Positions 1-2,199 of a stretch of DNA of 64,000 nt are shown in pieces. The notes beneath the pieces were generated by a model that saw only the letters and a program-made list of their open reading frames with translations, did not search any database and was not told where the DNA came from. The position numbers and the translations under genes were made by a program. Each line of letters starts with the position of its first letter. Within the stretch, counting starts at the first letter, position 1. The stretch lies in the NCBI GenBank assembly GCA_947631235.1, contig CANRKO010000004.1:62001-126000 (forward strand). The letters run 5' to 3'. This DNA comes from an uncultured Clostridia bacterium (lineage in GTDB: Bacteria; Bacillota; Clostridia; UBA1381).

Positions 1-1480
1 AGTATGCAATCTTAAAAGCGAAATCGAGATATTTAGGTTCCACGATTAGGAAATCGGCGTAAACCGTGATTTTATCAATAATTTCGGAGTACACACCGTC
101 GGAGAAACGCGTTTCGCTTTTTATTGTGTCGAGCAAATCCGAGCCGCGCTGTCTTTCGGTTCTGATTTTTTGCTCGTTTGCGAGAGCGTCAAGCTGCGAG
201 GTAAGATGTGTGAGTTCCTTGTCGTATTCGGCGGCAAATCGTTCCCTGTCAGTTTCGGTTATTTTGCCCGCGAAGTAGCCGTCGAGCATTTTGAGCCGTT
301 TACGGTTTACCTCGTTTATTTTTTCGGATATTCGCGCCGCACGGGTATCGTCCGTATCGGTAAGCGTTTCTATTTCCCTTGCGACTTCCGCCGCCGCGCT
401 GTCAAATTCGTCGGCGAAAAAATCCGAGACGTATTCCAATACAGTTTTCAGCGACTTGTCGTTGACCGTCCGCATACCGCAGCCCGATTTGCCTTGTCGT
501 GAACGTGTGCGGCACATATGCAATTTATACGTTTCACCGCTTTTGCGCGGTGATTTGCGCGGTGTAAAGCTTGACCCGCAGCAGCCGCAGACTATCTTAA
601 TGCCGAACCCGTGCGGGCGCGTTTTGTTCGCGGACGCTGCGCGTTTCTCTCGTATTTGCCGCGCCTTTTCCCACATTCCTCGGTCTACAATGGGCGCATG
701 GTGGTCGCGGATATAGATTTTGCCGCCGTCGTTTACGACCTTTTTATGAGTGAGATAGTCCGTTGTGATATATTTTTTCTGTATTAAATCACCGGCGTAC
801 TTTTCATTTTTGAGTATGTGCAAAACCTCTTCGCCGCTCCATTTTCCGTTCGTTTTGGGAGGTTTGAACCCCTCCTCGTCCAGTTCGCGTGCGATGACGT
901 GCGAACCCTTGCCCTCGCAGACGTATTTATAAAAAATAAGACGGACAACCTCCGCCTTGTCGTCGTTGACGGTAAGTTGTCCGTTTTTAAGAGTAAAGCC
1001 GTAAATGCTGTTGTTGCCGAACACAACGCCGTTTTCCATGGCTCGCCGCTGTCCCCACCTGACGCGCTCCGACGTTTTGCGGCTCTCCTCCTGCGCGACC
1101 GACGCCATTATCGACAGCCGAAACTCGCCGTCGCCGTCGCGCGTGTCTATATTGTCGTTGATGAAAATAACGCCGACGCCATATGCGCGGAGTTCACGCG
1201 TGTACGCGAGCGCGTCAACGGTGTTTCTCGCGAAACGGCTTACCTCCTTCGTCAGTATGAGGTCTATTTCGCCCGTCCTGCAATCTTCAATCATCTTGTT
1301 AAATCCCGTCCGCTTTGCCGTCTGTGTGCCTGTTACGCCCTCGTCGTAGTACACGCCTGCGAAAATCCAATCGTGGCGTTGTTTTATGTAATTTTCGAAA
1401 TATGCGCGCTGGTTCGCGAGCGAATTTATCTGGTCGTCCTTCTCCGTTGAAACTCTCGCGTAAGCCGCGACGCGCAGCAT
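1..1480 (-). CDS. Large serine recombinase, 3' end beyond the window
   Basis: Large serine site-specific recombinase that would integrate and excise the element it sits in. The frame is open from an ATG at 1480 to the window edge (493 codons visible, stop not seen). Residues 1-150 form the resolvase catalytic domain, starting MLRVAAYARVSTEKDDQ with the nucleophile Ser11 in ARVST. About 150-280 is the recombinase domain (YGF, then NEKYAGD). About 300-350 is a zinc ribbon with CGCC and later GCG cysteines. About 365-440 is a charged coiled-coil stretch typical of this family. A GGGGGCGG ribosome site precedes the ATG. The gene follows the 40-codon gene and the broken dpaA on the same strand, so the dpaA promoter could read into it. 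The family is certain; which element it mobilises is inferred from position. Confidence 0.93.
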   Translation of the reverse strand, partial: MLRVAAYARVSTEKDDQINSLANQRAYFENYIKQRHDWIFAGVYYDEGVTGTQTAKRTGFNKMIEDCRTGEIDLILTKEVSRFARNTVDALAYTRELRAYGVGVIFINDNIDTRDGDGEFRLSIMASVAQEESRKTSERVRWGQRRAMENGVVFGNNSIYGFTLKNGQLTVNDDKAEVVRLIFYKYVCEGKGSHVIARELDEEGFKPPKTNGKWSGEEVLHILKNEKYAGDLIQKKYITTDYLTHKKVVNDGGKIYIRDHHAPIVDRGMWEKARQIREKRAASANKTRPHGFGIKIVCGCCGSSFTPRKSPRKSGETYKLHMCRTRSRQGKSGCGMRTVNDKSLKTVLEYVSDFFADEFDSAAAEVAREIETLTDTDDTRAARISEKINEVNRKRLKMLDGYFAGKITETDRERFAAEYDKELTHLTSQLDALANEQKIRTERQRGSDLLDTIKSETRFSDGVYSEIIDKITVYADFLIVEPKYLDFAFKIAY

Positions 1481-1494
1481 ATTACCGCCCCCTG

Positions 1495-1617
1495 TTATTT
1501 TGTGATAAGCCTTCGGTATTCCTCACGCGTAAGGCGTGAGCGCGCGTACAGTTCCTTCAATATTCCGCGCCTGTACGCCGCTGTGATTTCATGCCTTTGC
1601 CGCCGCGTAAGCTCCAT
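1495..1617 (-). CDS. Small basic protein upstream of the serine recombinase
   Basis: A 40-residue frame (MELTRRQRHEITAAYRRGIL, then KELYARSRLTREEYRRLITK) with its own GGGGGCGG ribosome site, nearly identical to the one in front of the recombinase. It ends 14 nt before the recombinase start, so the two are probably translated from one message. It is rich in Arg and Glu and looks like two short amphipathic helices. Small genes of this kind are often seen beside clostridial serine recombinases; a directionality or accessory role is possible, but nothing in the sequence proves it. I do not recognise a named family. Confidence 0.6.
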   Translation of the reverse strand: MELTRRQRHEITAAYRRGILKELYARSRLTREEYRRLITK

Positions 1618-1631
1618 ATTACCGCCCCCGT

Positions 1632-2099
1632 TTATGTATATGCGGCGGGGCGGCAAAAATAAAACATGAACATAAAAATCCGCTGCACTTTCGCTAATGC
1701 GGTAGGTACGGCGTTGCGCACAGCGAGTTCCTCGCGCTTTAAATAGTCGCGGTAGGCTATGCCGCGCTCGTCAAGTTCCGCCGCGAGCGCGGGACGTATC
1801 TGACCCCCGAAAACGACGGCGGACGGGTTTATGTTATCCAAAAGCTCGTCAATCGTCAGCGGATCGTCGGAGTAGGGCGAGTTCACCGTCACTCCGTCGA
1901 ACGTCACCGGAACGGGCAGTACGACAATATCCGCGCCAAGCACGTAGTCAAGGTCGCTCTCCGCGTCCGCGACGCCGTCAAGCAGCGAGCCGTCCCTGTC
2001 AAAGCCATATAGAAAAACATGAAAACCCTCCGCACGCAAAAGCCGTGCGACGGTAAGCTGTCTTAAATCTCCTCCTATTACGGAAATTGTGTCAAACAT
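1632..2099 (-). CDS. dpaA: 5' part of dipicolinate synthase subunit A, interrupted by the recombinase element
   Basis: Dipicolinate synthase subunit A (SpoVFA/DpaA) makes dipicolinic acid in the mother cell during sporulation. Residues 1-134 match the family N-terminus: FDTISVIGGDLRQL nucleotide-binding start, LYGFD, a conserved VFGG region and the KREELAVRNAVPTA stretch that in intact proteins continues with the Rossmann NAD(P) domain. After Ala134 the sequence changes to unrelated residues and stops at codon 156, whereas the family is about 290-300 residues. The break lies 80 nt before the recombinase-linked small gene, so the loss is explained by insertion rather than decay: the visible part has no frameshift or stop. 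An AGGGGGT ribosome site precedes the ATG. The rest of dpaA, and probably dpaB, should lie beyond the far end of the element. Confidence 0.85.
   Translation of the reverse strand: MFDTISVIGGDLRQLTVARLLRAEGFHVFLYGFDRDGSLLDGVADAESDLDYVLGADIVVLPVPVTFDGVTVNSPYSDDPLTIDELLDNINPSAVVFGGQIRPALAAELDERGIAYRDYLKREELAVRNAVPTALAKVQRIFMFMFYFCRPAAYT
1690..1712. other. Likely attachment junction (att) of the element inside dpaA
   Basis: Similarity to DpaA ends at codons for Val-Pro-Thr-Ala, about 1698-1709. Left of this point the sequence is element-specific and carries no dpaA similarity. The crossover dinucleotide cannot be fixed without the other end. The position is inferred from protein similarity only. 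Confidence 0.5.
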
Positions 2100-2136
2100 A
2101 TGCTCTTACCCCCTGTTTTTGTTTTATCCTGTGGTT

Positions 2137-2164
2137 TATATTATGTTTTCGGCGCGGTTTGTGT
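2137..2164 (-). promoter_or_regulatory. Possible sigma-K type promoter of dpaA
   Basis: On the minus strand CATAATATA (2145-2137) fits the sigma-K -10 pattern CATAnnnTA exactly, and an AC 17 nt upstream (2164-2163) fits the short -35 element. It ends 38 nt before the dpaA start. Bacillus spoVF is transcribed by sigma-K, which makes the match sensible, but the motif is short and could occur by chance. Confidence 0.35.
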
Positions 2165-2199
2165 GAGTCAAATAATTTCGGTGGATTTATTTCATAATA

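Follow-up and report, generated by a model that had tools for sequence, protein, structure and literature searches.

What becomes of dpaA when its reading frame breaks off within a few hundred bases of a serine recombinase gene? The stretch analysed here (the window, 64,000 nucleotides, contig C4:62001-126000) raises this question at its very beginning. It belongs to the genome of a gut bacterium, 2.09 Mb in size and 86% complete (G000), and its left edge is not a contig edge, as C4 extends beyond window position 1. The product of dpaA makes dipicolinate, which is needed for spore heat resistance.

Two insertions in one dpaA gene

The initial annotation had described dpaA as intact for 134 codons and then switching to foreign sequence, and had expected a short identical core at both ends of the element, with the dpaA 3' part and dpaB beyond it. 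The features that bear on this are the following.

Window 2138..2165, minus strand: sigma-K-type promoter of dpaA, a motif match, CACA-N16-CATAATAT
Window 1698..2099, minus strand: dpaA 5' piece, codons 1-134, with the DpaA N-terminal domain (PF16924, 1.9e-29)
Window 1702..1716 (C4:63702-63716), minus strand: site-A core CAACGCCGTACCTAC at the dpaA 5' junction, with an identical copy at the far end (C4:55305-55319)
Window 1680..1701, minus strand: element-side arm at the 5' junction, CGCATTAGCGAAAGTGCAGCGG, an inverted repeat of the far-end arm CCGCTGCGCTTTTGC
Window 1495..1617, minus strand: 40-codon ORF directly upstream of the recombinase, a candidate recombination directionality factor
C4:61930-63480 (window 1..1480 and 70 more bases to the left), minus strand: site-A large serine recombinase, 516 aa, catalytic motif YARVST
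Window 1..1716, minus strand: the window's portion of element A, 8.4 kb in all
C4:54941-55300: downstream part of dpaA at the far end of element A, resuming at C4:55300
C4:54965-54975: site-B junction core CCGGCGGGGTG, with its second copy at C11:16181-16191

After codon 134 the dpaA frame enters non-dpaA sequence and runs on to a stop at window 1632, giving 155 aa in total. Element A, 8,397 bp long, lies between two identical copies of the 15-bp core, across which dpaA resumes in frame; the inverted repeat of its arms has a p of 0.002 against shuffles. The recombinase, on the same strand as the dpaA 5' piece as originally described, has the Pfam domains Resolvase, Recombinase and Zn_ribbon_recom. 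Only the placing of the small gene 80 nt away needs correction: the 40-codon ORF overlaps the end of the 155-aa dpaA frame. To the left of the window the element carries an amino-acid ABC transporter, an EamA transporter, a GNAT acetyltransferase and a two-component system, and none of its genes is a phage structural or packaging gene that would mark it as a prophage.

What resumes at the far end of element A is a middle piece of 108 codons (135-242), which is cut a second time at codon ~243. The 3' piece, the last ~45 codons, lies on contig C11, directly followed by an intact dpaB, and ~1 kb from it there is a different serine recombinase of 509 aa. The gene is thus in three pieces, split by two elements that each have their own recombinase; the original observation is confirmed and was an underestimate, the second insertion having lain outside its view. 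No stops or frameshifts occur within the pieces, so that the absence of decay claimed for the 5' part holds for the downstream pieces as well. A sequence search of the 86% complete genome found no second N- or C-terminal half of dpaA, and hence no intact copy elsewhere that would have spoken against the proposal.

Element B of this genome, which has a relaxase and mobilisation-type genes, spans a contig gap. The ~55 kb from the site-B junction to the contig end (C4:1-54964) hold an apparent NRPS-type gene, very large surface-type proteins and transporters. This whole stretch may be part of element B; as C4 and C11 do not overlap, and as relatives of some of its genes occur elsewhere in genomes whose dpaA is intact, we do not take it as one proven element. 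Several copies of a secreted-protein gene family (MKRFTLGFIIGGVICSALTGFAVEYAVTANPFP...) lie in or near site-B elements (L037/L031-L036; L044/L045/L161); the copy tested has no Pfam match.

Sites, junctions and recombinases among relatives

Searches of relatives and of the class yielded 30 genomes with a split dpaA, at four sites that coincide with the most conserved DpaA motifs (a slash marks the cut).

Site A: NAVPT/AEGA, 18 genomes
Site B: PGG/VDF, 12 genomes
Site C: SLPG/K, 5 genomes
Site D: codon ~187, 1 genome (G131; L157, L158), core CATGGATAAAGGCAAAC, 17 bp

No recombinase was found in the assembled ends at site D. Six genomes have two insertions in dpaA, at A and B (G000, G008, G010, G011, G446) or at B and C (G041), and in four cases only one dpaA piece was recovered (site A of G445 and G446, site B of G019, site C of G066). 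Within the order of the source genome dpaA is split in 14 of 33 dpaA-bearing genomes (~40%), a count over genomes with a completeness of 90% or more, to which the window's own (86%) was added; outside it, in a sample of the class, the figure is 4 of ~175 (~2%).

Could such splits arise from assembly or binning? Most of the genomes are MAGs, some pieces lie on different contigs, and pieces assigned to G033 and G010 may be foreign. However, for 19 elements both ends are on one contig, in independent assemblies that include the isolate Butyricicoccus sp. Marseille-Q5471, which leaves an artefact with a negligible probability. Five species (G000, G005, G008, G010, G011) have element A by common descent, with a 5-kb backbone that is 89-95% identical and other cargo that varies. 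Four of the five are labelled as rabbit-gut 'Lapin' MAGs.

The cores range from 2 to 19 bp. A script found in-frame rejoining for 31 of 33 junction pairs, one of these (A_G444) by a spurious match; this pair and the two that the script left unmatched (A_G447, C_G062) were read by eye and have cores of only a few bases. Read in this way, all 33 pairs fit an in-frame rejoining. Inverted repeats between the element-side arms were present in 20 of the 27 elements that could be tested, with CCTTATCCAAAT...ATTTGGATAAGG as an example from site B, and this is the form expected of a serine-integrase attP. The rejoined element end (attP) had no matches in viral contigs, a weak test for an excised junction or circle.

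Among the recombinases of 390 aa or more (15 A, 10 B and 4 C), every enzyme belongs to the family of its insertion site. Site-A enzymes score 359-1165 bits to the window's recombinase and at most ~114 to the B-type, while all site-B elements carry the B-type (436-1140 bits) and all site-C elements the C-type (602-1148 bits). In a maximum-likelihood tree, B and C each form a single clade with 100% support; the A-type falls into a main clade, comprising 13 rows and one contig from a fecal phage collection that lacks the target, and a pair from two distant genomes. All 8 homologues in the GTDB genome collection with at least 45% identity over most of the protein, one of them in the Butyricicoccus isolate, adjoin a split dpaA; lower full-length matches do not lie beside one, and L117 is a partial match only (63% over ~125 residues). 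A phage origin of the A-type recombinase was considered and rejected: its nearest full-length viral relatives reach ~43% identity or less, with no dpaA at the loci fetched. Searches of viral contigs gave one distant match for the B-type and none for the C-type.

Some recombinases depart from the common form. At site B of G008 the gene is split (GLSF/DRPEF) at two contig ends (C12, C13; L062 start, L161 end), which suggests an element nested inside element B; this copy may be locked through its split recombinase. The site-B enzymes of G037 (L069) and G048 (L068) lack a segment aligned to the coiled coil, which is thought to block excision in the absence of a directionality factor.

What, then, sets expression and direction? 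The initial annotation had proposed that the dpaA promoter drives the recombinase. This fits G000 and G005, where nothing lies between the two, but it is not general: in G011 the dpaA 5' piece and the recombinase have a gene of 3.3 kb between them, encoded on the opposite strand, and the recombinases of G009, G012, G029, G427, G444 and G446 point in the reverse direction. A sporulation promoter directly upstream of the recombinases was likewise rejected, as sigma-E and sigma-K matches at these positions were not above shuffles. The 40-codon ORF beside the recombinase has tblastn matches in 11 site-A elements, whatever the orientation of the recombinase; it matches Pfam below cut-off only and has no NCBIfam and no PHROG family. 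By its position and recurrence, it would be the best candidate for a recombination directionality factor.

Selection on the pieces and probable rebuilding of the gene

Over the divergence of the five element-A species, omega is 0.03-0.10 for the dpaA 5' piece and 0-0.06 for the middle piece; for the 3' piece, in a set that also includes G001, it is 0-0.16. The recombinase of the element-A species has an omega of 0.12-0.20. The motif mACm-N15/17-CATAnnnT, a candidate sigma-K-type promoter that would place dpaA transcription in the mother cell, was found in 24 of 27 relatives at no more than 130 nt ahead of dpaA; shuffled sequences gave a mean of 0.27 and a maximum of 2. The source genome has uninterrupted sigK-, sigE- and sigG-like genes as well as spoIVA. 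Taken together, this argues that all pieces of dpaA are under strong purifying selection as one protein although the gene is split, for which excision at sporulation is the best explanation.

These data bear on two further readings. Mobile elements might have landed in a gene that the lineage no longer used, having stopped making dipicolinate; the frequency of splits, ~40% of species in the order, and the damaged recombinases of some elements would suit such a pseudogene. Yet the pieces have neither stops nor frameshifts and kept a low omega (about 0.03-0.16) in five species while split, the sigma-K promoter, the sporulation sigma factors and spoIVA are all intact, and the cores are in frame, so that we regard this as distinctly improbable. 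Still less probable, to a degree that we would give it little weight, is a split enzyme whose pieces act as separate polypeptides without any excision. The cut at site A does seem to fall near the border between DpaA_N and the nucleotide-binding domain, but the cuts at sites B, C and D fall within the second domain, the downstream pieces lack a plausible start codon where they begin at the junction, and each site has kept its own recombinase family, still under selection.

We therefore consider it very probable that dpaA is rebuilt in the mother cell by excision of the elements, which are inherited via the forespore; excision itself, its limitation to the mother cell and the factor that sets its direction are what we infer. 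In this scenario the dpaA of the source genome is a composite gene, with elements at NAVPT/AEGA (site A, 8.4 kb) and KPGG/VDF (site B, large), that would be split and silent during growth. Late in sporulation, each recombinase, probably together with a directionality factor, would join its own two core copies, and each element would leave as a circle, so that the mother cell would have an in-frame dpaA-dpaB operon under the sigma-K promoter. The elements would stay in the forespore and thereby be passed on.

Cargo and relation to known intervening elements

Across the elements the cargo consists mostly of host-type genes, among them, as read from sequence, apparent type IV pilus, PTS and peptide-transport genes. 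The site-A element of G427 (L154-L156) has, by Pfam, an HsdM-type methylase and a DarT/Macro pair inside dpaA. The site-C element of G041 (L073/L162/L074) has a phage terminase, the only one among the elements examined. Three site-B elements carry glmS or nadE.

G027:C183:8049-9878 (L052): GlmS equivalog, within a 4.2-kb site-B element
G037:C6:45227-47134 (L069): glutamine-dependent NAD synthetase (nadE), within a site-B element
G048:C7:53268-55178 (L068): glutamine-dependent NAD synthetase (nadE), within a site-B element

A single sequence search of these MAGs found no other full-length glmS in G027 (98% complete) and no other full-length nadE in G037 (97%) or G048 (91% complete). Of the sister species, G046, G052 and G059 have weak nadE matches to short ORFs of ~250 aa elsewhere, which are probably a short NadE; G047 has no such match. 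Tentatively, and with the chances slightly against it, some elements may be kept by hostage genes: the sole copy of an essential gene that the host has (glmS in G027; nadE in G037 and G048) would have been captured or replaced by the element. This would amount to a programmed DNA elimination that separates soma from germline, in which germline excision carries a built-in penalty.

The same cargo bears on the possibility that these are ordinary mobile elements (an IME, a prophage or a genomic island) whose attachment site is a conserved coding motif and which excise sporadically, without a link to sporulation. Variable cargo such as the DarT/Macro pair, the HsdM-type methylase and the terminase agrees with this, as do the relaxase and mobilisation-type genes in element B of the source genome. 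However, element A is vertically inherited and stable in five species with functional dpaA pieces, the target is a putative mother-cell gene, and sporadic loss of an apparently sole-copy glmS or nadE would be costly. We deem this reading unlikely, if the least so of the alternatives, and retain excision in the mother cell.

With the skin, vfbin and gin kind of element, those in dpaA share an insertion in the coding region of a sporulation gene, an encoded serine recombinase, short direct repeats and a precise excision that is predicted to restore the frame. Closest is vfbin, a serine recombinase element in spoVFB (dpaB) of Bacillus weihenstephanensis (PMC4191935, PMC5595907), in that both lie in a gene for a dipicolinate synthase subunit, in the same pathway and operon. 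Unlike vfbin, the dpaA elements occur in clostridia and hit subunit A rather than B, at four sites, with at least three recombinase families and with two insertions in one gene; in the source genome dpaB is intact and free of an insertion. As with skin in sigK of B. subtilis and C. difficile (PMC5025042, PMC6957869), a mother-cell gene would be rebuilt by a recombinase, and the small ORF near the recombinase start recalls skr of skin, which overlaps spoIVCA; unlike there, sigK is intact in the source genome and element A is without phage genes. Like gin in gerE of B. cereus (PMC5595907), the elements are non-prophage intervening elements with a serine recombinase, but they lie in another gene and carry host housekeeping and transport genes. 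SP-beta in spsM and yin in yabG (PMC4191935, PMC10747680) also lie inside sporulation genes, with attL and attR rejoining in frame; these are prophages or prophage-like, whereas most dpaA elements examined are not prophages. In the literature searched (subscription papers and preprints outside its scope), split sigK, spoVFB, spoVR, gerE, spsM, yabG and kamA are described and dpaA (spoVFA) was not found, in keeping with the original suggestion of a new target. The split of dpaA would thus be a new target and a multi-site version of the known intervening elements of sporulation genes.

dpaA would accordingly be added to the few sporulation genes that are interrupted and then reassembled. It appears as a hotspot, in view of the ~40% of species affected in one clostridial order, the four sites, the distinct recombinase families and the genomes with two insertions. 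With the Butyricicoccus isolate there is a cultured strain in which excision can be tested. Hostage cargo, for its part, suggests a reason why elements persist in the germline. If this reading is true, a growing cell that excises would lose the gene as the circle dilutes, while the dying mother cell would be unaffected; if the sole copies are confirmed, loss of the element would be lethal in a growing cell and excision in the mother cell free of cost.
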